A stretch of 39,232 nucleotides of DNA from a virus, in IMG/VR virus record IMGVR_UViG_3300007735_000710, positions 1 to 39,232 of that record; one strand, written 5' to 3'. The notes under the pieces are model-generated. The model searched no databases, had not been told where the DNA came from, and saw only the letters and a program-made list of their open reading frames with translations. The position numbers were made by a program, and so were the translations under genes. The stretch's first letter is position 1, and every line of letters starts with the position of its first letter. Positions 1,076 to 38,536 of this stretch are shown piece after piece.

Positions 1076-1315
1076 TTACCAAGCCCTGCACGACCAGTAC
1101 CGAGCCTTGGTCTTGGGACCGGGATTGTCGCAGTTATGGCGAGCCCGGAAGTTCTTACGACGGCCCGGGATGTGCTTCTTGATCTTCATGTTGGGGTCGC
1201 CAAAACGAACGATCTTGGTTTTATCCCCGTCCTTCACACAGACAGCCGACTTCTTGGGGCCACCCGGGGTACGGAAGGGCTTATTCAGGGATCGATTCTT
1301 ACAGGGACTAGCCAT
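1076..1315 (-). CDS. Conserved small basic phage protein, 79 residues
   Basis: The product runs from MASPCKNRSLNKPFRTPGG to the C-terminal KTKARYWSCRAW. The core 'KPFRTPGGPKK...VKFGDPNM...RRKNFRARHNCDNPGPKTKARYWSC' pattern is one I recognise as a widespread small phage protein family of unknown function, usually encoded near structural or packaging genes. Cysteines lie in the motif HNCDNP and near the C-terminus (WSC). The start at 1315 is chosen because its ATG overlaps the stop of the upstream gene (TAATG). An in-frame extension to 1354 would run into that gene. Confidence 0.75.
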   Translation of the reverse strand: MASPCKNRSLNKPFRTPGGPKKSAVCVKDGDKTKIVRFGDPNMKIKKHIPGRRKNFRARHNCDNPGPKTKARYWSCRAW

Positions 1316-1497
1316 TATCGCCTCATTACTTCTAGGACTTCTGGGGGAACGCAATCCTTAAGTTCTCGCATGGCCTTAGCCAAATCACGAGACTCGTGCA
1401 GGTGGTTCTTGCTCCTTAGATGGTCTTCATAACACACAAGAGCGGAGCAGGCTGCAACAAGAAGATTGTTGGTCCATTCATCCAGTTCTACATCCAT
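1315..1497 (-). CDS. Small acidic protein of unknown function, 60 residues
   Basis: The 60-residue product begins MDVELDEWTNNLLVAACSAL and ends PPEVLEVMRR. It is probably alpha-helical, with a hydrophobic patch LLVAACSALVCYE at residues 12-24 that is too short and polar for a sure membrane span. Its start lies inside the last codons of the large terminase gene in another frame, and its stop overlaps the next start (TAATG). This tight packing supports it as a real gene of the packaging operon. I do not recognise a family. Confidence 0.6.
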   Translation of the reverse strand: MDVELDEWTNNLLVAACSALVCYEDHLRSKNHLHESRDLAKAMRELKDCVPPEVLEVMRR

Positions 1498-5849: not shown

Positions 5850-6062
5850 CTAGTTAAAGAGTTTGAAAATGTAATTAAAGCCCATAGATACGGCTGCGCC
5901 AACGGTGGCAGCAAGCCCCATGGAGAACGATCTGATGTGTTCTAGATCCCTAAGCCGCTCTTCGTGGTTTTTGATCTGTTCAGCCTGCATATGTTGCATC
6001 TGAATCAATGCATCCACCTTGCCCTCAAGTCGGCCCAAGGTCAAGAACAACTCGTCGTTCAT
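5850..6062 (-). CDS. Coiled-coil plus C-terminal membrane protein, holin-like (gp17.5 position)
   Basis: A 70-residue protein. Residues 8-44 form a probable coiled coil (LGRLEGKVDALIQMQHMQAE), followed by one membrane segment at about 45-66 (SFSMGLAATVGAAVSMGFNY) and a short tail. This layout is like XhlA/haemolysin-type small phage proteins and T7 class II holins. Its place after the fibre genes corresponds to T7 gene 17.5, the holin. It is co-translated with the collar gene (ATGA overlap). Holin is the best guess, but the small membrane protein at 22073-22252 competes for that role. Confidence 0.65.
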   Translation of the reverse strand: MNDELFLTLGRLEGKVDALIQMQHMQAEQIKNHEERLRDLEHIRSFSMGLAATVGAAVSMGFNYIFKLFN

Positions 6063-20455: not shown

Positions 20456-21574
20456 TCAGGTAGCAGTCAGTTCGTAGCAGCACTCCTCGCGGAGCACGTT
20501 GTGACCCATGGCGTACTTGGCGAGCATCAGCGTACCAAGGCGCTCCATGATGTACTCCGACTCCAGCGAGAGATCCATCAACTTCACCGTACCAACAGCC
20601 TCGCGGTGGAAGACGATACCACGGGTGCTGCTGAAGTTGAGGCCCGAGTAACCAGCATCAGTCGTGCCAGAGACATCGTTCTTCACACCCGACGCACCGT
20701 GCAGCACATCCTGATTCGAGGACTCATCAACCGAAGGCAGATGATTGCTCTTCAGAATGCGGATACCCGCAACCGAAAGAACCTCACCACCAGCGATGCT
20801 GCCGTTACCTTCGTTGCCGAAGTCACGGTCAAGAGCATCCTTACCAGTACGGACCAGAGCATAGTACACGTCCGGGCGAAGAATCGCAAAGCGATCCGCG
20901 CTGGGCACATTCTTCTCGTCCATACGGCGAGCAACACTAAACAGACCTTCGATGATCGTGTCGCCGGTGGGATTCGCGTTGATACCAACCTGAGCACCAA
21001 GGTAGGTGGTGTCAGTACCAGAAGCCACACCGAAGCGATCCGTGGTCTTACGAGCACCAGCGATCACGGTACGGATCAGGTTCTTGTCAGCCGTGTAGGC
21101 CAGAGCCCGACCAATCTCCGTGCTGTAGATGCTACGCACATCGTAGTGGTTCTTCATCTCATCGATGTCGGCCACGAAGGTGCTGGACACGAGAACATCG
21201 TCAATGAGGATGACCTTCTCGTTGTGACGGAAGCGGCTAAGGTACTTCGAGGAAGGGCTGTTGCCCGAATCGAAAGAAACCGTGGGAGAACCAGCGCTGG
21301 CCGAAGCCGCAAACAGGTTCGTGCCAGCAGCCTCGCTCAGAACGCTCTCGCCGGGGACATGGTACTTGGCCGAAGCCACGCCGGTCACCGGGAAGGTAGC
21401 ACTCTTGCCACTCTGAATGGTGCGAACACGATGCAGCGGCATCATCACGTTGTACTTCTCGAACGTCGTGATGATCTCACCGCTGAAAACCTTGAGGAAC
21501 AGCGCATCAGCGTCAGCACCAAAGCCGTTGCTAAACGTCTGTCCGAGCCGCGACGGCTGAACAAAATCTGCCAT
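20456..21574 (-). CDS. Major capsid protein (T7 gp10-like)
   Basis: A 372-residue HK97-fold capsid protein. The N-terminus MADFVQPSRLGQTFSNGFGA with LFLKVFSGEIITTFEKYNVM and HRVRTIQSGKSATFPV is typical of T7-like capsids, as is the C-terminal region DLSLESEYIMERLGTLMLAK. AAGGAA precedes the ATG by 7 bases. A terminator-like hairpin lies upstream (21695-21730) and a strong one downstream, so capsid is bracketed as its own expression unit. No frameshift extension is evident. Confidence 0.96.
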   Translation of the reverse strand: MADFVQPSRLGQTFSNGFGADADALFLKVFSGEIITTFEKYNVMMPLHRVRTIQSGKSATFPVTGVASAKYHVPGESVLSEAAGTNLFAASASAGSPTVSFDSGNSPSSKYLSRFRHNEKVILIDDVLVSSTFVADIDEMKNHYDVRSIYSTEIGRALAYTADKNLIRTVIAGARKTTDRFGVASGTDTTYLGAQVGINANPTGDTIIEGLFSVARRMDEKNVPSADRFAILRPDVYYALVRTGKDALDRDFGNEGNGSIAGGEVLSVAGIRILKSNHLPSVDESSNQDVLHGASGVKNDVSGTTDAGYSGLNFSSTRGIVFHREAVGTVKLMDLSLESEYIMERLGTLMLAKYAMGHNVLREECCYELTAT

Positions 21575-21694: not shown

Positions 21695-21730
21695 AAAGAA
21701 AAGAACCACCCAGATTTCTCCGAGTGGTTC
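21695..21730 (-). terminator. Probable terminator between spanin cassette and capsid
   Basis: On the minus strand a 9-bp stem (GAACCACTC with GGGTGGTTC, one T-G pair) with a 10-base loop is followed by TTTTCTTT. A second hairpin follows at once (CTCAAGT/ACTTGAG, 21671-21694). The pair sits in the 177-bp gap upstream of the capsid gene. Readthrough must occur, or a capsid promoter must lie at 21575-21670. The base run GAGGGAGA in that stretch resembles a T7-type start site, but nothing upstream of it is convincing. Confidence 0.65.
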
Positions 21731-21751: not shown

Positions 21752-22003
21752 TTAAAGATTAGATTTGGGCGCAGTCTTCGGTGTATCGTCAGGAACATCT
21801 GCGGCCCACCAACCAGCAGGGATCTCGACCTTATTAGCCGACTTGATTCGAGTCCCGTCCTTCTGCACGACGAAGACATGAGCCCGCACAGGCTCCGCCA
21901 GTTGAACAGGAGTCCCCTGAGGGACAAACACCACGGTAGTTCCGCACCCGCTCACGCAGGCGATCCCGGATACCACCAGCAGTTGGATCAGCGTCTTTCG
22001 CAT
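21752..22003 (-). CDS. Small lipoprotein, probable outer spanin (Rz1-like)
   Basis: The 83-residue product begins MRKTLIQLLVVSGIACVSGC. This is a lipoprotein signal: basic n-region, hydrophobic core at 4-16, and lipobox V17-S18-G19-C20. The mature part is Pro/Val rich with AEPVRAHVFVVQKDGTRI and VEIPAGWW. AAGGAAAC before the ATG is a fair ribosome binding site. It starts inside, and in a different frame from, the membrane-anchored gene at 21834-22073. That is the classic layout of Rz/Rz1, hence the call. The role in outer-membrane disruption is inferred. Confidence 0.65.
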   Translation of the reverse strand: MRKTLIQLLVVSGIACVSGCGTTVVFVPQGTPVQLAEPVRAHVFVVQKDGTRIKSANKVEIPAGWWAADVPDDTPKTAPKSNL

Positions 22004-22073
22004 ATGTTTCCTTAGATAGCAGCCGTTCCACAAACAGAAGAACAGAAAAGACTAACTGCCCAAACCAGTTCAT
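21834..22073 (-). CDS. Short membrane-anchored protein, possible inner spanin
   Basis: A 79-residue protein with one N-terminal membrane segment (MNWFGQLVFSVLLFVERLLS), then a charged helical stretch (RDRLRERVRNYRG). The last part, which overlaps the lipoprotein gene in another frame, has an odd Cys/Gly-rich composition. Its ATG overlaps the upstream stop (TGATG), so initiation is coupled. The N-in, C-out design and the embedded lipoprotein gene suggest an inner spanin. The coiled coil is shorter than usual, and the C-terminal third could be a by-product of the overlap. Confidence 0.5.
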   Translation of the reverse strand: MNWFGQLVFSVLLFVERLLSKETYAKDADPTAGGIRDRLRERVRNYRGVCPSGDSCSTGGACAGSCLRRAEGRDSNQVG

Positions 22074-22252
22074 CACAGGGCCTTGGCATCCTTAGCCAGA
22101 ATCAGGCCCAGTCCTGCGGTGCAGGCAGCGACGACCGAAGCCACATCAAAGACGGTGGTAGGATCGTTGTCGATCAGGGCGATGATGGCCGAGGAAACGG
22201 CGGTGAGAATGGTGCAGATACCGAGAACGGTGGTCTTGGGACTCGACTTCAC
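22073..22252 (-). CDS. Small protein with two hydrophobic segments, holin-like
   Basis: A 59-residue ORF starting with GTG at 22252. The start is strongly supported: AGGAG, 7 bases, GTG, overlapping the scaffold stop (GTGA). The sequence has two hydrophobic segments, about 8-27 (TVLGICTILTAVSSAIIALI) and 33-53 (TVFDVASVVAACTAGLGLIL), with a DNDP turn between them and charged ends. Two spans plus small size fit a class II-type holin, and the next two genes look like spanins. It is too short to appear in a length-filtered gene list. Holin function is inferred. Confidence 0.65.
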   Translation of the reverse strand: MKSSPKTTVLGICTILTAVSSAIIALIDNDPTTVFDVASVVAACTAGLGLILAKDAKAL

Positions 22253-22986
22253 GACTTGACTCCTAGAGCGTTGGAAAGAGCGACACGCTGTTCAACATCA
22301 CGACGATAGGCCGGATCCTTTGCATAGCGGGGATCCTTCATGGCCTCGACAATTTCAGAGATACTTCGGAAGGCTCCACCGCTGGGTCCGGACACCTCGC
22401 CCTGAATCAGATTGCCAGCACGTCCATTGGCCTGCTCATACCTTGCTCGAAGACCCTGAACAGCCATACGAATAGTATTCATATTTCCAGAGTCGATGAT
22501 TGAATTAAACGCATCCACCTCATCGTCGGGAATATTGTTCCCAGCCCAATCAATCAACTCCTGATACTGTTCCTGTCCACCAGCAAGATTGAAGACTGCC
22601 GAAACATTGGACTCGACAACCGACTTCTGACCTTCAACATAAGCCCTGACAATCTGCTCAGGGATACCCATAGACGCAATTGCCTTAATGGAGTCATCAC
22701 TCAGATCGCCATTTTTGTTGAACTCTTCCGAATACTTTTCAAGTCCAGCAAAGGAAGTCGGCTTATCCGAAGAGAACTTCTTCTCCAGTTCGCCATATGC
22801 CTTGGCAAGATCTTCTGGATTCTGGAACTTCTCAGGAAGCCAAGTAGGGCGCTCCGAAGGCGGAACGGAAGTATCCTCCTGCGGAATCTGCTCTGCCTGC
22901 GATTGTGCCGCCAGAGCCTGAGCCATGGGGTCGTTGGGATTGTTGTTAGTGTCTCGAACAATAGTGACTTGCTGCGGATTACTCAT
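22249..22986 (-). CDS. Scaffolding/capsid assembly protein (T7 gp9-like)
   Basis: A 245-residue acidic, low-complexity helical protein located between portal and capsid, the place of T7 gene 9. It carries the phrase RPTWLPEKFQNPEDLAKAYG (residues about 46-65), which is widely shared by T7-like scaffolds. Its ATG overlaps the portal stop (ATGA). It directs procapsid assembly and then leaves. Confidence 0.9.
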   Translation of the reverse strand: MSNPQQVTIVRDTNNNPNDPMAQALAAQSQAEQIPQEDTSVPPSERPTWLPEKFQNPEDLAKAYGELEKKFSSDKPTSFAGLEKYSEEFNKNGDLSDDSIKAIASMGIPEQIVRAYVEGQKSVVESNVSAVFNLAGGQEQYQELIDWAGNNIPDDEVDAFNSIIDSGNMNTIRMAVQGLRARYEQANGRAGNLIQGEVSGPSGGAFRSISEIVEAMKDPRYAKDPAYRRDVEQRVALSNALGVKS

Positions 22987-24775: not shown

Positions 24776-24991
24776 TTAACTTCTACTTAGTTTATTGTCG
24801 TCTTGATCTTCAAAAACACGGATCAAGTATCGAACAACAGAACGCTGACCTGCCTTATAAAAAATGGCGTCAATCTGTTCGCCAAGGTCAGGGCATCTTT
24901 CTGGGAAGAGTTGATCAATGTACCGAAGAACTTCGATTGGAATTCTCGGAACAGGAACAAAAGCCTCCTTAGAAAGGTTTGAATTATCCAT
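24776..24991 (-). CDS. Small protein of unknown function, 71 residues
   Basis: The product begins MDNSNLSKEAFVPVPRIPIE and contains LRYIDQLFPERCPDLGEQID and GQRSVVRYLIRVFEDQ. Its start overlaps the end of the Nmad1-like gene. Short proteins of this sort are encoded just before the virion genes in related phages, in my recollection without a known role. The ribosome binding site is weak (AAAGAA), which suggests coupling to the gene before. Confidence 0.65.
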   Translation of the reverse strand: MDNSNLSKEAFVPVPRIPIEVLRYIDQLFPERCPDLGEQIDAIFYKAGQRSVVRYLIRVFEDQDDNKLSRS

Positions 24992-25319
24992 TGTTCTTTT
25001 GACTCTGGGTATAGGTATACAGGATTACAGCGTAATTGATGATGTCCAGCACGGTATCCCGAAGAGCCTCATCCTTGACCTTGAACTCCCCGGTCGTGAT
25101 GAAGGTGGACAGGCGGGACATCTTATCGGTCAGACGCACCATGATCCCAGCCTCAGTCTTGCAGATACCCATGGCTTCGCACCGGGTAAAGTTGAGGAAG
25201 GGATGCGTGTCGTCCTTGCCACCGCTGTAATCGTGGTTCTTACGCTCCGAGAGGCCCCGGGCCTCATCGCAGAGTTCCTTGTGCATAGCCAGAAGACGGG
25301 CGCGATTCATGGGGTCCAA
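24984..25319 (-). CDS. Nmad1/DUF1599-like nucleotide-associated protein
   Basis: A 111-residue helical protein with the pattern RKNHDYSG...FLNFTRCEAMG...GIMVRLTDKMSRL...DTVLDIINYAVI. This fits the DUF1599 group, called nucleotide modification associated domain 1, which is related to the MazG-type all-alpha fold. It may hydrolyse or bind a nucleotide. The start at 25319 is a TTG: AGGAGG lies exactly 7 bases before it, whereas the in-frame ATG at 25310 is 16 bases from AGGAGG and overlaps the exonuclease stop (ATGA). Confidence 0.75.
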   Translation of the reverse strand: MDPMNRARLLAMHKELCDEARGLSERKNHDYSGGKDDTHPFLNFTRCEAMGICKTEAGIMVRLTDKMSRLSTFITTGEFKVKDEALRDTVLDIINYAVILYTYTQSQKNNG

Positions 25320-32183: not shown

Positions 32184-32199
32184 GTGATACTCTCCTTTG

Positions 32200-32216
32200 A
32201 GTATAGACTCTAGACT
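32200..32216 (-). promoter_or_regulatory. Palindromic element copy 3 (AGTATAGACTCTAGACT)
   Basis: It lies between the RNA polymerase stop and the SSB start. The 17-mer is identical to copy 10 at 38302-38318 and differs from copy 4 only in the central base. This subclass is less symmetric (TATA in one arm). The TAG stop of the RNA polymerase gene at 32215-32217 overlaps its edge. Operator or phage promoter for the SSB-to-exonuclease block is inferred. Confidence 0.7.
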
Positions 32217-34608
32217 AGTTGAAATAGTAGTCAGAGTCGCGAACTTGTGTGATGTCCAGAGAACCGTACTCTGGGACTTCAGGCATACTAACTGACGAAG
32301 GCAGCATTGTCAAGACCCCCTGCCGGAACTCCTGAAGCAGGTCGCGGCTGAAAATATCGACTGTAGCCTGTCGGACACACGAAGCCGTCATCATATAGTC
32401 TCCAGACAGACACAGGATCTGATCGTGGACAGAGCCAAGATGGTTGATCCCATTGGCGGCACAGAGATTGATGGTGTGTCCAAGCAGTCCACCAAAGCCA
32501 TCCAGCGAGTGAATGTAGTTGGCAGGACCACCGTTCAAAGCCTTGCGCTTGCTCTGGGTTCCGTTCTCTTCTCGGATCGACAGCACCTTGGCCTTGGCTC
32601 CGATACGAGTAGATACCGTAACCACATCATAATTTTCGTAACGCATGCGAACGGGGAATCCGATGGGAGTCATCCAGTACGGAGTCACATCGTTGTCGAT
32701 CAGCACAGCCATGCATCCACGGATAAAGTCCATGCCACGCTTGGCCGAGCCGACTACATCATCAATGGATTCCCAGATGATTTTGCCGAGGAAAGCCACG
32801 GGCTTGTAGAACTCCAGACCAAACGGGTTCTCTCCGGTCTTCCGCATCTTGTCCTCAAGCCATTCACGGGTGTAGCCGATGCATGAGTGCATGGTCAATC
32901 CGTATGGCAGAGTCATGGTCTGACGCTTGGTCGTAGTGCGGTCAATACCAAAGCGCAGAAGATCCTTAGCCATGGGATCCTCGCTATTCTGAAGTCGGCG
33001 GATGACGCTGTTGGCAACAAACTGATATGGATCAGACGGACGATCCGAAGGGGTCACATTGGTCGCCACGGCTGCCACAGGATCGCGAAGCAGCATTGAA
33101 TAGATCTGAAGCCCCTGCGTGGTCGCGTCCATGGCAATAGGTAGGCTGCTAACGAAACCCTTGCCTGTACGCCAGAGACCAGCAATTTCCCGGCAGGCGG
33201 CAACAAATGCGAACGGCTCGTCAGCCTCCAGCCACATGCGGTTCGACCACGGATCGATGGCAATTTGTTCAATCGTCCTACGGTTTTCCTCCACCCACCG
33301 AACACGATCCTTGATGGTTTCCTTGTCAAGTCCGAACTTGTTTGCCGTGTGAACATAGAGCGGAAATTGATCGGAATCAGAGTTGATGTGCTTGCCGTCA
33401 ATGAAACGGAGCATTGCCTTGGCATACGATACTCCCTGAGGATGGAGGAACAGGGGCAGCGGATAGCCACGGCCACGGAAGTCCAGTTGATGCGGGAACC
33501 AGATGCGCGGATGCTCGGCCATCTTCTCGGCAACAAACAAAGCCTTCAGGGTAAGCAGCCGCTGCGATTCATAGGACTCGTTCAGGAAGTGGACCTTGGC
33601 AGCAGCCTTGCGCCAGTTCCGACGAGCCTCTTGATTCGTGTCAATATCGACAGGCTTGGTGGGCAGCGGCTCATCGATTGATGGCGGAAGGCTGTCTACC
33701 GTTAGCCCCTCCTTCCAACACTCACGGACGAGGGACATGATGTACTGATCAACAGTCCATGGAGTATTTTGGACAAAGTTGACCGCGTCGTAGACGGCGG
33801 GTGATAGTGAAGATGATAGTGATTGCTGATACGCCTTGGACCGACTCTTGACCAGAGGCCGAGGCTTCCACTCCATCGACGAATATCCGCCAATCCATGG
33901 ATTATTCCACTCTAGCGGACGCTCAATGGTGGGCAAGAACATTGGTTCAAGCGTTTCGTGATACTCATGGCAGTCCTTGATCCACTTCTTGATGTCCTTG
34001 GACGGCTGGATCACACAGTAACGGCGGCCCCGGGCATTCAACTTGGTAACGATGTCGATGATCCCCGTGCGCTGGGACAACATCTCAATGCAGAGAAGGC
34101 CAACAGCCAGAGCATCGGCCTTGGTCCAACGCTTGGTGACCAGATCGACAGCCTTGGCGGCATCTCGGGCAAACCGACGCTTGAACTTCTGGCCTACACT
34201 TTTGAAAGTCTTCTTCTGAATAGTCTTCAGGAAGTCCGGGTTGTTTTCGGCCAGATCTTGCAGCAGGACTTCGTCCTCAATGGCCCGCCCAACAGCGATG
34301 CAGGTTCCGGTGAGCATGCGCTCCTGCGACAGGGCATCGATCACGACCTTGGCAGCGATGACGGCAGTCTTTTCGGGCTCAATCTGGCTGAGGTAGGACA
34401 GACATCGGTGACGACGACCGGGACTGATGGAAGCCTTGGCAAGCCACGACTCCAACTCCTTTGCCAGTTCGGTGGTGCACCGATTGAGCATCATCCGGCC
34501 CGGAATGGTGTTGCTTTCTGCTGCCAGTTTGCTGGCCTTGTCACGGCGATTATGGTATCGCTGACGGCCAAGTTCCAGCATTTCCTTGTCGAGTTTGTTT
34601 TGGCGCAT
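32215..34608 (-). CDS. T7-type single-subunit RNA polymerase (gp1-like)
   Basis: A 797-residue DNA-dependent RNA polymerase. The conserved blocks are in order: QLDFRGRGYP at 374-383, motif A with D494 (AMDATTQGLQIYS), motif B R557...K561...Y569 (RTTTKRQTMTLPYG), PANYIHSLDG at 695-704, and motif C H728-D729. All catalytic residues equivalent to T7 D537, R627, K631, Y639 and D812 are present. It is shorter than T7 RNAP (883). The ribosome binding site is poor. Element copy 4 ends 7 bases before the ATG, so expression may be tightly controlled. It transcribes middle and late genes. Confidence 0.96.
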   Translation of the reverse strand: MRQNKLDKEMLELGRQRYHNRRDKASKLAAESNTIPGRMMLNRCTTELAKELESWLAKASISPGRRHRCLSYLSQIEPEKTAVIAAKVVIDALSQERMLTGTCIAVGRAIEDEVLLQDLAENNPDFLKTIQKKTFKSVGQKFKRRFARDAAKAVDLVTKRWTKADALAVGLLCIEMLSQRTGIIDIVTKLNARGRRYCVIQPSKDIKKWIKDCHEYHETLEPMFLPTIERPLEWNNPWIGGYSSMEWKPRPLVKSRSKAYQQSLSSSLSPAVYDAVNFVQNTPWTVDQYIMSLVRECWKEGLTVDSLPPSIDEPLPTKPVDIDTNQEARRNWRKAAAKVHFLNESYESQRLLTLKALFVAEKMAEHPRIWFPHQLDFRGRGYPLPLFLHPQGVSYAKAMLRFIDGKHINSDSDQFPLYVHTANKFGLDKETIKDRVRWVEENRRTIEQIAIDPWSNRMWLEADEPFAFVAACREIAGLWRTGKGFVSSLPIAMDATTQGLQIYSMLLRDPVAAVATNVTPSDRPSDPYQFVANSVIRRLQNSEDPMAKDLLRFGIDRTTTKRQTMTLPYGLTMHSCIGYTREWLEDKMRKTGENPFGLEFYKPVAFLGKIIWESIDDVVGSAKRGMDFIRGCMAVLIDNDVTPYWMTPIGFPVRMRYENYDVVTVSTRIGAKAKVLSIREENGTQSKRKALNGGPANYIHSLDGFGGLLGHTINLCAANGINHLGSVHDQILCLSGDYMMTASCVRQATVDIFSRDLLQEFRQGVLTMLPSSVSMPEVPEYGSLDITQVRDSDYYFN

Positions 34609-34615
34609 AGATATT

Positions 34616-34632
34616 AGTATAGAGTCTAGACT
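34616..34632 (-). promoter_or_regulatory. Palindromic element copy 4, before RNA polymerase gene
   Basis: AGTATAGAGTCTAGACT, followed on the plus strand by TTTAGAAC, so a second half-site (GTTCTAAA on the minus strand) adjoins it. It ends 7 bases from the ATG of the RNA polymerase gene and would overlap the ribosome-binding region. If it is a repressor site it is well placed to shut off polymerase synthesis; if it is a promoter it would make the gene autocatalytic. Confidence 0.7.
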
Positions 34633-34646
34633 TTAGAACGACATAT

Positions 34647-34683
34647 AAAAACCCCTCATATGCAAAATATTGCACATGAGGGG
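34647..34683 (-). terminator. Intrinsic terminator between DUF932-like gene and RNA polymerase
   Basis: On the minus strand a 14-bp stem (CCCCTCATGTGCAA with TTGCATATGAGGGG, one G-T pair), loop TATT and tail TTTTT. It lies 55 bases after the stop of the DUF932-like gene and just before the RNA polymerase leader. This separates the early block from the RNA polymerase operon, unlike T7, where the early terminator lies after gene 1.3. Confidence 0.88.
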
Positions 34684-34737
34684 CTCGAAAGGAGAACACC
34701 GATGAACACGGTGCTTCCCGGAGTATATGTCTACAGA

Positions 34738-35469
34738 TTAGACCAGTTCGTAAGTCTGCTTGAACGCCTTCTCGAAAGCCAGAACGCGGCGCGGACGAAC
34801 GATGGGGTTGAAGTCCTTGGCAAGATGGGTGTACGCCGCGTGGACATTGTAGAGACACCACTTGTCAGTCTCGTACATGAACGACGGATCGACCGCCTCG
34901 TTGTAGAAGTCCAGCATGCTGGCCTTGGGCAGGATGTCCTGCTGGGCCAGACGCACCGTGAACGCGGCCAGACGATCTGCATCGGTGTAGTTCCGGCGGA
35001 TCGACTCGTAGAACTCCCCAGCCCGGGCCACCTCGTTGCCGAAGGCGTTGACCGAACGATTGATCAGTTCGGGCAGACGCTCCCAGACATTGGTGGTGTG
35101 CTTGGTACGAAGGATGTGATCAGCCACGACCATGCCGTTGCTGCACACAAAAACCTTGCCACCAAAGACCAGTCGCACAGCCTTGGACTTGTCGTAAGAG
35201 TTGATGACGGCAACCGACCAGTTCATGCGCTGGGTTTCAGGCATGGACGGACTGCCAACCTCCGCTTCGATGTCCACCTGACTGATGAAGATGGGCTTCT
35301 TGCGGTGGATCTGGTGCGACTCCGTGCCCAACCGATAGCCGTTGCCGTAGAAGGCCCGCTTGACCTCATCGAAGAGTGCCGCCTGATGCACAGGCTGGTA
35401 CGAGTCCGTCGATGCAGGCAGGGGGTACTTCGTGATGTCCGTCATAGTTTGCCAAGTGTTTCGTGCCAT
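34738..35469 (-). CDS. DUF932-like phage protein
   Basis: A 243-residue protein. The block AVRLVFGGKVFVCSNGMVVA (97-116) and the later NPIVRPRRVLAFEKAFKQ fit the DUF932 (phage/plasmid-like TIGR03299) group of unknown function, found on phages and plasmids. AAGGAG and element copy 5 lie just before the ATG. It is the last gene of the early block, closed by a strong terminator. Confidence 0.8.
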   Translation of the reverse strand: MARNTWQTMTDITKYPLPASTDSYQPVHQAALFDEVKRAFYGNGYRLGTESHQIHRKKPIFISQVDIEAEVGSPSMPETQRMNWSVAVINSYDKSKAVRLVFGGKVFVCSNGMVVADHILRTKHTTNVWERLPELINRSVNAFGNEVARAGEFYESIRRNYTDADRLAAFTVRLAQQDILPKASMLDFYNEAVDPSFMYETDKWCLYNVHAAYTHLAKDFNPIVRPRRVLAFEKAFKQTYELV

Positions 35470-35480
35470 GTGTGTCTCCT

Positions 35481-35497
35481 TGTCTAGAGTCTAGACT
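35481..35497 (-). promoter_or_regulatory. Palindromic element copy 5, before DUF932-like gene
   Basis: TGTCTAGAGTCTAGACT; the inner 15 bases GTCTAGAGTCTAGAC are perfectly symmetric. It ends 11 bases before the ATG of the gene at 34738-35469 and overlaps the TAG stop of the gene at 35491-35700. Compared with copies 1 and 9 the outer base pair of the arm changes on both sides together (T/A to G/C), so symmetry is kept by paired change. Confidence 0.75.
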
Positions 35498-35700
35498 GTT
35501 GTGTGAGGCGGATGCTTCAGAGCAATCTTGAGGAAACGATCCTCATCTGCGGTAACCCATAGGTGGTAGTTGTCTACCCGCCAAAGTGCGAGTGACGCAA
35601 GGTTATATGACCTGATCAGGTCGCCCTGCATCCAACCCGTGTGAGCAGAATTGATTGTGTCCGAAAGCAAACACGAGTGTCGATGAAACGGTATCTCCAT
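35491..35700 (-). CDS. Small protein of unknown function, 69 residues
   Basis: The product begins MEIPFHRHSCLLSDTINSAH and ends KIALKHPPHTTV; the middle reads LALWRVDNYHLWVTADEDRF. No ribosome binding site lies before the ATG, and a host-type promoter (-10 at 35706-35711) sits directly in front, so the start would be leaderless or an internal start would be used. The stop TAG is inside element copy 5. The frame is open and the codon use is similar to neighbours, but no family is recognised. Treat as plausible. Confidence 0.5.
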   Translation of the reverse strand: MEIPFHRHSCLLSDTINSAHTGWMQGDLIRSYNLASLALWRVDNYHLWVTADEDRFLKIALKHPPHTTV

Positions 35701-35705
35701 GTGTG

Positions 35706-35733
35706 TATATTACATCACAATTTGATTTTGTCA
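35706..35733 (-). promoter_or_regulatory. Host-type sigma-70 promoter abutting a start codon
   Basis: TTGACA (35728-35733), 16-base spacer, TAATAT (35706-35711). The -35 overlaps the TGA stop of the 87-residue gene. Transcription would begin about at the ATG at 35700 of the next gene, giving little or no leader. It shares the perfect TTGACA and 16-base spacing with the three other early promoters but lacks their hairpin and close palindrome. Confidence 0.65.
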
Positions 35734-35994
35734 ATCGTGGATATCGACGCTCTTGTTGCTGATGTGCAACCAACCCGGACGGGTACGCTCCTCATCGATC
35801 CAAGCGGAGATACTGAACTCCTTGCCAGTTTCCTCGTTGACCATGAGTAGCACGACGGCGAACTCTCCGGGATTCAAGTTGTCTTCGGCAATGCCGATTC
35901 CCTTGACTCTGGCGTCCTTGAGAACGATAGCCCGGTTGAACTGGTAGGTAGCCCCTGCTGGGGTATCACGATCTGGTGTCTTGCCGATCCACAT
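35731..35994 (-). CDS. Small protein of unknown function, 87 residues
   Basis: The product begins MWIGKTPDRDTPAGATYQFN and is beta-rich and acidic, with FAVVLLMVNEETGKEFSISA in the middle. The ribosome binding site AAAGGAG lies 6 bases before the ATG. An AT-rich leader with an imperfect hairpin precedes it. It belongs to the early block. I do not recognise a family. Confidence 0.7.
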   Translation of the reverse strand: MWIGKTPDRDTPAGATYQFNRAIVLKDARVKGIGIAEDNLNPGEFAVVLLMVNEETGKEFSISAWIDEERTRPGWLHISNKSVDIHD

Positions 35995-36067
35995 GGTGGA
36001 CTCCTTTCAAAAAGAAAGCGCGTGATTTTAACCCGAGGTATACGCGCCCCACCTCGACCTGAAAGGA

Positions 36068-36622
36068 TCAGACGGAGGCTGGCTTCATGCGGTTCAGTAT
36101 GTAATTGAACGCAGCCTCAAAGAAGTCATTGCGGAACTCAGGATTGTTGCGGAACTCTTCCACGATGAACTTGGCGAGTTTGCCGTGCTCACGGGATTCA
36201 CCGATCTCCTCCTTGTCGATCTCGTAGGCCAGCGTAGTGTAGTCGATCTCGCTGGACAGTTCACGAGCCACATCTGAAAGATCGATCTTGCCCGCAACAT
36301 CTTCGGCAAGGTCGGAAACATCAATGTGTTCCGCAACCGACGCGACATCGATGTGAGAAGCAACATCCTCAACATCCATGTCATTGGCGACATCTCGGGT
36401 ACTGACATTGGCCGCGATGTCCTCCGCACAGAACTGATCCGCAAGGTGGCTGTAACTGATCTCCTCGTGGATCTCGGCGTAGTCGATCTCTTCGGCCAGT
36501 TGCTTGTAGTCGATCCGAGGATCGTTCAACGAGATGCCCGGAAGCATAGGCCCAGCGTTGACTTGGAACTTGTTCTGAAGAGACTGGATGGCTTCCGCAG
36601 AGAGCGTGATGGTGAGGTCCAT
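36068..36622 (-). CDS. Acidic early protein with 9-residue repeats
   Basis: A 184-residue protein with about 40 Asp/Glu and 14 Lys/Arg. From residue 37 hydrophobic positions recur at 37, 46, 55, 64, 73, 82, 91 and 100, an exact 9-residue spacing, with consensus I-D-V/Y-x-D/x-L/V-A-E-x; then two longer units begin at 113 and 126, and a last at 135. The N-terminal 36 residues and the C-terminal 45 are non-repetitive. A regular solenoid or rod with an acidic surface is likely. The negative charge and early position invite comparison with DNA-mimic antirestriction proteins such as T7 Ocr, but no sequence match is claimed. Confidence 0.8.
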   Translation of the reverse strand: MDLTITLSAEAIQSLQNKFQVNAGPMLPGISLNDPRIDYKQLAEEIDYAEIHEEISYSHLADQFCAEDIAANVSTRDVANDMDVEDVASHIDVASVAEHIDVSDLAEDVAGKIDLSDVARELSSEIDYTTLAYEIDKEEIGESREHGKLAKFIVEEFRNNPEFRNDFFEAAFNYILNRMKPASV

Positions 36623-36640
36623 GGTGGACTCCTTTCGGTT

Positions 36641-36657
36641 ATTCTAGAGTCTAGAAC
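36641..36657 (-). promoter_or_regulatory. Palindromic element copy 6, before the acidic repeat protein
   Basis: ATTCTAGAGTCTAGAAC with a 15-base perfect inverted repeat (36642-36656). It ends 18 bases before the ATG at 36622. It is downstream of the promoter at 36701-36728 and the leader hairpin at 36675-36691. Confidence 0.75.
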
Positions 36658-36674
36658 GGTGATGTGGTTTGTTG

Positions 36675-36728
36675 GAAGACACGATGTCCCCAACACAAGC
36701 ATAGTATCAGACAACCCTGATCTGTCAA
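36675..36728 (-). promoter_or_regulatory. Early promoter with leader hairpin, module for the acidic protein
   Basis: TTGACA (36723-36728), 16-base spacer ending in TGA (extended -10), TACTAT (36701-36706). After the start site the leader can fold as GGGGACA-TCG-TGTCTTC (36675-36691), a 7-bp stem including G-T pairs. The -35 overlaps the TGA stop of the GP88-like gene. The same order is found at 37586-37637 and 38128-38182. Confidence 0.75.
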
Positions 36729-37534
36729 TAGTTGTTCACCACGAAGGCTGAACCACGATTGATCTTACCCTTGGCACGAAGACCCACAATGCATCCCGAG
36801 GGATCATTGATCCGAAGATCGTGAGAGTCTCCGTCGATGACGGGCCAGTCCTTGTAAAACTCGGGCAGAGGATCGCCCTTGTTCACATTGAACACAGCCG
36901 CCACCTTGCCACGACGCTGCAAGTACTGCTCGCACTCGTCCCAGTTGTGACCGGAGAACGAAAGCGTGAGGTCAAGAATGAACTCCCGGCGTGGATTATC
37001 CATCAGGTCCATGCAACGCTTGAATGACTTTGTGTAGTCGTAGTTGCGCCACGAGAACCAGTAGATCTCCGGTGCGATGTGCTCCCACGGGATATCCGAG
37101 AGCACATTGGATCGAAAGGCGAATGATGGACCATGCTTGGTCAGAGCAGCCGCCAACTCCGCATACAACTGGCGGAAGAAGTCATACGGGTGGTCCATGA
37201 GATACCGGGTCTTCTGAATCCGGGCCTCCCGAACATTGGAGAACTTGGACCGACCCGAGGTGATGCCGAGACATGCAGCCTCACACTCCGGGCTACGCCA
37301 TGGGCAGAGTTGATACCCCGAGGACCCAGCCGGAGCCAGCGTCAGGCCATAGATCGGGATCGACCCCTTCGCCAACTTGGTATTGGCCCCCGGCTCCGTC
37401 AGCAGTTTGGCCGTACGAACACGCAGCCAGTCAGCCTTGCAGCAATGATCCTTGAAAGCGTCGTAAGCCACACCCTTGATGTAGGCCCAGTTTGGAGCGA
37501 CGGCTGGCGTGTTGTTGATGACTTCGAGTTGCAT
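36725..37534 (-). CDS. GP88-like cysteine-containing phage protein
   Basis: A 269-residue protein. NTKLAKGSIPIYGLTLAPAG (51-70) followed by C77, C84 and C88 (CPWRSPECEAACLG) and then ARIQKTRYLMDHP resembles the 'gene product 88' group of phage proteins of unknown function, with a likely metal-binding cysteine cluster. C31-C32 are also near the N-terminus. It is an early gene with its own promoter and element copy 7 upstream. Ribosome binding site AAAGGAA. Confidence 0.7.
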   Translation of the reverse strand: MQLEVINNTPAVAPNWAYIKGVAYDAFKDHCCKADWLRVRTAKLLTEPGANTKLAKGSIPIYGLTLAPAGSSGYQLCPWRSPECEAACLGITSGRSKFSNVREARIQKTRYLMDHPYDFFRQLYAELAAALTKHGPSFAFRSNVLSDIPWEHIAPEIYWFSWRNYDYTKSFKRCMDLMDNPRREFILDLTLSFSGHNWDECEQYLQRRGKVAAVFNVNKGDPLPEFYKDWPVIDGDSHDLRINDPSGCIVGLRAKGKINRGSAFVVNNY

Positions 37535-37553
37535 GGTGTTTCCTTTCGAGTTC

Positions 37554-37570
37554 GTTCTAGAGTTTAGAAC
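37554..37570 (-). promoter_or_regulatory. Palindromic element copy 7, before GP88-like gene
   Basis: GTTCTAGAGTTTAGAAC, differing from copies 1 and 9 by one base next to the centre. Flanking C and G extend the symmetry (37553-37571). It ends 19 bases before the ATG at 37534. The stretch from here to the ATG is nearly the same as the one after copy 9 (both contain ACTCGAAAGGAA). Confidence 0.75.
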
Positions 37571-37585
37571 GGATTGGATTTGATG

Positions 37586-37637
37586 GGCAGACCCTCTGCC
37601 TACAAGTAAAAAGTATCAGACAAACATCAGTTGTCAA
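37586..37637 (-). promoter_or_regulatory. Early promoter with leader hairpin, module for GP88-like gene
   Basis: TTGACA (37632-37637), 16-base spacer ending in TGA, TACTTT (37610-37615). The leader folds as GGCAGA-GGG-TCTGCC (37586-37600). The -35 lies in the last codons of the 48-residue gene. The stems of the modules differ in sequence but keep pairing, which suggests that the hairpin is selected. Confidence 0.75.
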
Positions 37638-37773
37638 CCTCTGCACGAAGCAGACAAACCTTGATGTCATCCAGTTCCGCGATGATCTCCTTGAGAGTTT
37701 CCTCGTGGGTGATGTGCGAAATGGACTTGGACAGAAGATCCAGCAGACGGTGAATCATTTCGTTGGGACACAT
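37627..37773 (-). CDS. Small early protein, 48 residues
   Basis: A 48-codon ORF beginning MCPNEMIHRLLDLLSKSISH and ending DDIKVCLLRAEVDN. It is probably helical throughout, with an acidic middle (HEETLKEIIAELDDIK). AAGGAGAA lies 9 bases before the ATG and overlaps the stop of the 24-residue peptide. It is too short for usual gene lists, but the ribosome binding site and tight packing support it. Confidence 0.65.
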   Translation of the reverse strand: MCPNEMIHRLLDLLSKSISHITHEETLKEIIAELDDIKVCLLRAEVDN

Positions 37774-37784
37774 GGGTGTTCTCC

Positions 37785-37859
37785 TTAATCGGTGGTGCTG
37801 ATGTACAGGGCAAGCGGAATGCCCACAAGAACGAGTAGCGCAGCCAGCAGTTCAAACAT
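37785..37859 (-). CDS. 24-residue membrane peptide
   Basis: The ORF MFELLAALLVLVGIPLALYI plus STTD is almost entirely one hydrophobic span, with a Glu near the N-terminus and Asp at the end. AGGAG lies 7 bases before the ATG, and element copy 8 directly precedes that. Such tiny early membrane peptides in phages can act on host envelope proteins or prevent superinfection, but no function can be assigned from sequence. Confidence 0.6.
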   Translation of the reverse strand: MFELLAALLVLVGIPLALYISTTD

Positions 37860-37871
37860 TGATGTTCTCCT

Positions 37872-37888
37872 GTTCTAGAGTTTAGAAT
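37872..37888 (-). promoter_or_regulatory. Palindromic element copy 8, before 24-residue peptide
   Basis: GTTCTAGAGTTTAGAAT, with the same off-centre base as copy 7. It lies between the zinc-ribbon stop (37888-37890) and the peptide ATG at 37859, 12 bases away. No host promoter is seen directly upstream, so the element can occur without one. Confidence 0.7.
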
Positions 37889-38079
37889 CAGTCGATCCGG
37901 TGACCTTGGCGGCAGTCCGCACAGACCCCATGGACCACGGAAGCATCCTCATAGCCACAGATCTCGCAGATGCCATCCTGCGGCTCCTCGTGCTGGGCCA
38001 CGCCACGGTCCTCGCACCACAAATGGGCCTTGATACGCTCCCGGGCATCACGAACACGGTATTCAACTGACTTGCACAT
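37888..38079 (-). CDS. Small zinc-ribbon protein, 63 residues
   Basis: The product begins MCKSVEYRVRDARERIKAHL. Two CxxC knuckles, C38-C41 (CEIC) and C53-C56 (CADC), form a probable zinc ribbon at the C-terminus; the N-terminal half is a basic helix. AAGGA is 7 bases before the ATG, with element copy 9 and a host promoter upstream. Small zinc ribbons of early phage genes often bind host RNA polymerase or nucleic acid. The exact target is unknown. Confidence 0.75.
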   Translation of the reverse strand: MCKSVEYRVRDARERIKAHLWCEDRGVAQHEEPQDGICEICGYEDASVVHGVCADCRQGHRID

Positions 38080-38099
38080 GACTGGTTCCTTTCGAGTTT

Positions 38100-38116
38100 G
38101 TTCTAGAGTCTAGAAC
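38100..38116 (-). promoter_or_regulatory. Palindromic element copy 9, before zinc-ribbon gene
   Basis: GTTCTAGAGTCTAGAAC, perfect inverted repeat, identical to copy 1. It ends 20 bases before the ATG at 38079, downstream of the promoter and leader hairpin at 38128-38182. Confidence 0.78.
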
Positions 38117-38127
38117 GGATTGGACTG

Positions 38128-38182
38128 GGAGCAGACGATCTGCCCCACAACTGAAGACTACCAGACCACCCTACTTTGTCAA
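38128..38182 (-). promoter_or_regulatory. Early promoter with leader hairpin, module for zinc-ribbon gene
   Basis: TTGACA (38177-38182), 16-base spacer ending in TGG, TAGTCT (38155-38160; weak -10). The leader folds as GGGGCAGA-TCG-TCTGCTCC (38128-38146), an 8-bp stem with one G-T pair. The distance from -10 to palindrome is 38 bases, against 39 and 43 in the two sister modules. Confidence 0.7.
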
Positions 38183-38301
38183 GGGGTTACTTTTGGTCTA
38201 CACATTGGAGCACATGTATATTGACCTAGGTTGATACTTGTAGTTAGTACTTCTTTTAGTCTATATTTAAGGACTATAGGGGCAACTAAAGTTTAGACTT
38301 A

Positions 38302-38318
38302 AGTATAGACTCTAGACT
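38302..38318 (-). promoter_or_regulatory. Palindromic element copy 10, in intergenic region
   Basis: AGTATAGACTCTAGACT, identical to copy 3. It is the only copy not close to a start or stop codon: the next gene start is about 220 bases away. Neighbouring half-sites at 38292-38298 and 38256-38262 could extend binding. Confidence 0.65.
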
Positions 38319-38478
38319 GACCTAGCAGATTACATCTAGGGTTGGAACATGATGCGTCAGATTTGAGTTGGAAACTGACGGAACTGATGCTGAAACTAAC
38401 GACTTGGATGTCTTTTTGGTGGGGCCGACGACGACTGATGACAGTAAATGATGATAGCGGCTGGAAAAAATTTGCATG

Positions 38479-38512
38479 AAAAAACCCCGACCCACCTTTC
38501 GGTGAGCCGGGG
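38479..38512 (-). terminator. Intrinsic terminator of first early gene
   Basis: On the minus strand a 12-bp stem (CCCCGGCTCACC with GGTGGGTCGGGG, two G-T pairs), a GAAA tetraloop and six T. It is an exemplary factor-independent terminator about 25 bases after the stop of the 225-residue gene. It isolates that gene from the rest of the early block. Confidence 0.92.
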
Positions 38513-38516
38513 TCGT

Positions 38517-38533
38517 GGTCTAGAGTCTAGAAC
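38517..38533 (-). promoter_or_regulatory. Palindromic element copy 11, between first gene and its terminator
   Basis: GGTCTAGAGTCTAGAAC, with core symmetry only. It starts 4 bases after the stop codon of the 225-residue gene and ends just before the terminator stem. A promoter here would fire straight into a terminator, so a protein-binding site seems a better reading for this copy. Confidence 0.7.
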
Positions 38534-38536
38534 GGG

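Follow-up and report, generated by a model that had tools for sequence, protein, structure and literature searches.

Organization of the Locus

The window, by which we mean the whole stretch of DNA that was analyzed, is a record of 39,232 bases from a T7-like uncultured phage with its genes on the minus strand. They follow the order portal, scaffold, A, B, C, capsid, tail tubular, internal virion, tail fibre and terminase, where some of the names are assigned from the order and from the likeness to T7. The three small overlapping genes that the original prediction saw between scaffold and capsid are real and all lie on the minus strand (Table 1). They are tightly joined: the GTG start of A overlaps the scaffold stop, and the GTG start of B in turn overlaps the stop of A. 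Gene A indeed encodes a two-span membrane protein on a GTG start, with hydrophobic segments at residue 9 (KD 2.46) and residue 34 (KD 2.07) of its 59 amino acids. The lipoprotein gene C, with its lipobox VSGC, is out of frame with B as predicted (+1 frame). It had also been taken to be embedded in B, but its start lies inside B and its end 82 nt beyond the B stop; the genes are overlapped, not embedded. The hairpin between C and capsid is weak evidence for a terminator, since three terminator-like sites were observed in the region and 1.8 are expected.

Table 1. Positions in the window of the features discussed in the text.
Feature	Position	Strand	Evidence or remark
Scaffold/capsid assembly gene	22249..22986	(-)	Pfam PF05396, PHROG 1052
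A: 59-aa two-span membrane protein, GTG start, Shine-Dalgarno TAGGAG; holin slot	22073..22252	(-)	
B: 80-aa ORF, GTG start; predicted N-terminal amphipathic helix, then basic helix	21834..22076	(-)	
Constrained part of B, residues 1-48	21933..22076	(-)	codon-position entropy
C: 83-aa predicted lipoprotein, +1 frame relative to B	21752..22003	(-)	
Dual-coding stretch, 72 nt: B residues 25-48 / C codons 1-24 (signal peptide)	21932..22003	(-)	
C lipobox VSGC (residues 17-20), +2 residue Gly	21944..21955	(-)	
C Shine-Dalgarno AAGGA at -10, in B Lys-Glu codons	22009..22013	(-)	25/25 non-redundant relatives
Hairpin of 12 pairs with T-rich tail, like a terminator; lies between C and capsid	21703..21730	(-)	weak
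Major capsid gene	20456..21574	(-)	Pfam PF21703, PHROG 267
Coiled-coil protein of 70 aa, hydrophobic segment at its C-terminus	5850..6062	(-)	4/4 full relatives compared

Recurrence and Dual Coding

The A-B-C trio recurs across many uncultured phages in IMG/VR. Relatives were collected by scanning IMG/VR with C, with the capsid and with clade alignments of C; at least 341 loci were retrieved, of which 319 had a tblastn match to C, and 179 remained after repeats and loci near an edge were dropped. All locus counts therefore describe a sample of the collection (at most 80 loci per scan), and the clades c1, c1b (window-like), c2, c3 and c4 denote the best-matching query, not a tree. In each of the 179 distinct loci listed, an out-of-frame B overlaps C, which gives overlapping or adjacent genes as in two-component spanins; no locus (0/179) has the lipoprotein without this partner. 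The relative frame of B and C is identical in 26 representatives, and a two-span A lies upstream in 133 of the 169 loci with enough room. Searches of named phages and protein families gave little: tblastn against 50,697 named phage records returned no match for window A, window C, the 48-residue B or three divergent C relatives, A, B and C gave nothing above chance in Pfam, PHROG and NCBIfam, and the search of genome contigs yielded one locus (L117), which lies in a metagenome bin. A targeted literature search found no published description of the trio, and we claim no wider absence.

Conservation of both frames among relatives, by which the original prediction was to be judged, was found jointly over 72 nt. 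The analysis used 25 non-redundant window-type sequences, drawn from 44 unique ones of 71, with 13 divergent, gapped or cut loci excluded. Upstream of C the variation is maximal at position 3 of the B codons, and over C codons 1-24 it amounts to 0.96 at B position 3 versus 0.59 at C position 3. From C codon 25 onward the maximum lies at C position 3 (1.24-1.34; 1.32 in the C-only part). This flip at C codon 25 means that the constraint on B ends at residue 48, and the pattern marks the C signal peptide as the more tolerant partner in the overlap. The last about 32 residues of B show no selection in the B frame, and the B stop differs in position among relatives, giving proteins of 56 to 83 aa. 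True dual coding thus covers only 72 nt, and beyond B residue 48 C alone is constrained.

Synonymous shuffling of C gave the same picture. The mean pairwise identity of B residues 25-48 is 0.657, against 0.337 after shuffling (z 28.9); the B tail reaches z 7-9, which we take as relatedness destroyed by the shuffling. Since each shuffled sequence stays open through B residue 48 with a mean probability of 0.71, openness by chance is high, and the conservation of B, not the open frame, is the real evidence. Invariance of Ser-Lys-Glu in B was considered as protein selection and rejected, because the Shine-Dalgarno sequence AAGGA of C occupies those codons.

Lipoprotein C

By the established sorting rule, a lipobox followed by a residue other than Asp at position +2 directs a lipoprotein to the outer membrane. 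With VSGC followed by Gly, as in o-spanins, C is predicted to be such a protein. Asp occupies +2 in only one of 82 C sequences, and Gly-Cys stands at residues 19-20 in 25/25 relatives, all of which were chosen with Cys at 20. Further invariant or near-invariant positions beside G19 and C20 are V43, S55, V59, P62, G64 and W65. The mature part is small and, in the model (mean pLDDT 81, pTM 0.43), consists mostly of two strands. A fold search with this model found no solved relatives at E<=0.001, and the best BFVD matches were an uncharacterised uncultured-phage protein (E 3.6e-4) and one nameless entry. Assignment of C to PHROG 3198 ('Rz-like spanin') was tried and discarded: the match has E 0.15 and spans residues 1-38 only, mostly the signal peptide.

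Protein B: Spanin, Disruptin or Neither

The description of B as a single-span protein is doubtful. T7 gp18.5 is a known i-spanin, and window B, judged like all B proteins here by simple hydropathy scales, has a borderline span of comparable hydropathy (KD19 1.31 vs 1.35 for gp18.5). Among 23 non-redundant window-type relatives, however, KD>=1.6 is reached in one and a 17-residue uncharged run in none; the corresponding runs of T7 18.5 and lambda Rz are 19 and 23 residues long. The hydrophobic moment is >=0.4 in 23/23 and the net charge positive in 22/23. The model contains helices at residues 3-23 and 33-50 (mean pLDDT 74, pTM 0.31). An amphipathic, net-positive N-terminal helix and the lack of a clear span suggest that window-type B is not a standard i-spanin. 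Clade c2 resembles it (amphipathic 21/26; KD>=1.6 in 2/26). Clade c3 is more hydrophobic (amphipathic 13/32; KD>=1.6 in 16/32), so the amphipathic reading cannot be extended to the family as a whole, and within this one B family the helix may lie on the surface in some members and span the membrane in others.

These data bear on the original prediction, once embedding is replaced by overlap: B and C would form a genuine two-component spanin of the overlapped class, with B as a short type II i-spanin anchored by its N-terminal helix, C as the o-spanin and A as the holin. We consider this unlikely. The architecture itself would be ordinary: in a spanin survey (PMC6139136), overlapped pairs are the commonest class (228/677 surveyed phages) and pairs can have as few as 62 periplasmic residues in all. 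The gp18.5-like hydropathy of window B, and the half of c3 that reaches KD>=1.6, would also agree with a spanin. Apart from the missing uncharged run in window-type B, its length speaks against it, as only about 26 constrained residues follow the N-terminal helix. Cysteine is likewise absent from B 1-48 and mature C in 22/23 window-type pairs and in 57/82 overall; the cysteines that window B does contain lie in its unconstrained tail. A periplasmic cysteine is usual, not absolute: the survey counts at least one in 507/528 known spanin pairs. In addition, 26 of the 39 c2 loci that have no capsid nearby carry, upstream of A, a protein with a span followed by a charged coiled-coil-like part, a better i-spanin candidate in those loci; it was found in 0 of 119 capsid loci and in none of the 8 loci outside both groups, and 13 of the 179 loci were too short for this test. 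Because a robust span is missing from window-type relatives, and B has neither a conserved cysteine nor constraint past residue 48, the data do not support B as an Rz-type i-spanin. Of the original holin plus Rz/Rz1 pattern, we therefore keep the lysis cassette with an overlapping pair and give up this assignment of B.

Window-type B is a short, amphipathic, cationic peptide, as disruptins are. In PMC12819732, disruptins are described as amphipathic helix peptides of small size that replace spanins. Their archetype, phiKT gp28, has 56 aa, is encoded between endolysin and holin and shares with B its small size, amphipathicity, mostly positive charge and lack of a signal peptide. B alone could accordingly break the outer membrane as a disruptin, with C in another role such as superinfection exclusion, but we hold this to be very improbable. 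The likeness to gp28 is one of composition only; gp28 is more cationic (+7), and B of L029 has a net charge of 0. Moreover, B and C are apart in 0/179 loci, which fits a joint function, and the spanin-like lipoprotein is always present, a one-sided observation as the loci were found through C. phiKT differs here: B never occurs without its overlapping lipoprotein, and Table 10 of PMC6139136 lists phiKT as spanin-less.

In two loci, L083 (1525-2052) and L109 (3412-3885), one ORF of 157-175 aa replaces the trio. It combines an N-terminal lipobox-like GC with a later hydrophobic stretch and could be a unimolecular spanin.

Gene A and the Holin Slot

With 59 aa and two hydrophobic segments, A has the size and topology of a class II holin. 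Window A itself matches no known holin family above chance in Pfam, PHROG or NCBIfam, and PF23987, the curated family of the Pam3 gp28 holin, does not match it either. In L028 and L032, however, members of PF23987 (best E 3.3e-17) fill the A slot and overlap B by 4 nt, the same as A does. We examined the slot in 170 loci and found an ORF in 150 and, by the rule used, none in 20. The ORFs form 52 clusters, of which 9 non-hydrophobic or doubtful ones were excluded and 43 hydrophobic ones scanned. PF23987 was matched by 2/43 of these members, and weak PHROG holin matches were obtained to PHROG 34682 (two), 2359 (one) and 297 (one). By eye, the slot holds proteins of a KTT...AKDA type, of a KPGYKTTEFWL type and the PF23987 members, ending at the B start. 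In L029 an A-type protein occupies the slot upstream of B.

A further small gene family (YKGNKFSGYNKPK type in L029) was noted at window 1076-1354 (-), L029 3128-3400 and L208 490-738. In L029 and L208 the family is found close to the trio, and in the window it is close to the terminase.

Genomic Context and Possible Further Lysis Genes

The placement between scaffold and capsid, which had been called unusual, is indeed unlike that in T7, yet other phages share it: in 107/179 trio loci the scaffold gene lies upstream and the capsid gene downstream. In 26/179 one of the two was found and the other either escaped detection or lay beyond the edge; in a further 46/179 (c2, c4) neither was found, some of these loci being cut by an edge. 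The named phage Ayaqvirus S45C18 (AP013544.1, L112) likewise has small ORFs between scaffold and capsid; one encodes a membrane protein of 62 aa and is followed by a 104-aa ORF that overlaps a 73-aa ORF with lipobox MSGC. By eye these sequences look unrelated to A, B and C, and the annotated ORFs are hypothetical proteins. In 18/63 c2 loci the distance from the lipobox to the start of TerL downstream is 346-1696 nt. L195, for example, has the order tail gene, TM/coiled-coil ORF, A, B/C, TerS, TerL, to be compared with 17.5, 18, 18.5/18.7, 19 in T7. The c4 loci place the trio in yet another gene context.

On the window coding strand we saw no other plausible lipoprotein or two-span gene. The 70-aa coiled-coil protein at 5850-6062 sits between the tail-fibre and terminase genes, a position like that of T7 gp17.5, and is a possible further part of the lysis system; a lysis locus that was split or moved is a possible history.

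Endolysins were searched with seven families that have matching controls, in 18 possibly incomplete records of 38-44 kb, the window among them. PF00959 and PF01464 were found in one record each, and PF01510, PF08291, PF13539, PF01551 and PF00877 in none, so that 16/18 records contain no endolysin of these families and none lies beside the trio. PF01510 matched three of six named phages (T7, CRP-114, RHEph21). It did not match lambda or phiKT, on which it alone of the families was tried, and lack of the seven families is therefore no proof that an endolysin is absent. PF05838 and PF00182 matched no control and are uninformative. For the large internal virion protein of the window, the match to PHROG 342 ('with endolysin domain') covers the profile only from position 306 on.

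The missing endolysin families, together with the place among head genes in 107/179 loci, would suit a trio without a role in lysis. It could, for example, protect the envelope, exclude superinfecting phages or, expressed together with the head genes, aid morphogenesis. We judge this quite improbable, as TerL lies close to the trio in 18 loci, the c4 loci have the trio in a different gene context, a holin family occupies the A slot, and the window has no other lysis-capable membrane gene set except 5850-6062.

Proposed Role

We conclude that A-B-C is probably a lysis cassette; a standard Rz/Rz1 is not established. Lysis is the best reading because a PF23987 holin takes the A slot in two loci and the trio lies near TerL in 18. 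Against it, window A matches no holin family in Pfam or PHROG, and half of the canonical lysis system is missing, as no endolysin lies beside the trio and 16/18 records have none of the seven families. To the full reading, a late lysis cassette in which a holin and an outer-membrane-disrupting pair of undescribed families share an Rz/Rz1-like layout, we give about an even chance. We infer the partnership of B and C and every activity in it as follows. A, as a small two-span holin, would permeabilise the inner membrane first. B would be a cytoplasmically made protein of about 48 residues, whose amphipathic N-terminal helix binds the membrane and whose second helix is basic; it would act at the inner membrane or be released through it, and C would sit in the outer membrane. 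After A has acted, B and C would jointly disrupt the outer membrane and so do the job of Rz/Rz1 with unrelated proteins.

Lambda (Rz/Rz1) and T7 (gp17.5/gp18.5/gp18.7) share with the trio a holin and an out-of-frame overlapping pair that ends in an outer-membrane-type lipoprotein, and the c2 loci near TerL add to the likeness to T7. In contrast to both, C runs past B and is not embedded, window-type B is without a robust N-terminal span, the trio has no conserved cysteine, and in the window it lies between scaffold and capsid.

PMC6139136 reports no identifiable spanin in about 13% of surveyed phage genomes, and the A-B-C module is a candidate to fill this gap. If the reading is true, it would explain the host exit of a large set of uncultured T7-like phages. 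The trio also offers an annotation signature (a two-span protein, an amphipathic basic B and a lipoprotein ending near I-P-[AE]-G-W) and a natural overlapping-gene case, in which the conserved core of one protein is written over the signal peptide of the other. A bolder view, which we regard as unlikely, is that a holin, an amphipathic peptide and an overlapping lipoprotein form a widespread envelope-breaking module in phages without a recognisable endolysin; if so, lysis would proceed without a peptidoglycan hydrolase or with one of an unknown kind.

Two further features of the window were recorded. A 111-aa protein at 24984-25319 (-), 85-91% identical in three relatives, has a weak match to PF07659 (nucleotide-modification-associated). 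In the early region, palindromic repeats around TCTAGA (families D1, D4, D6) occur at 36639-38535 and 32197-38318 and are possibly promoters of the phage RNA polymerase.
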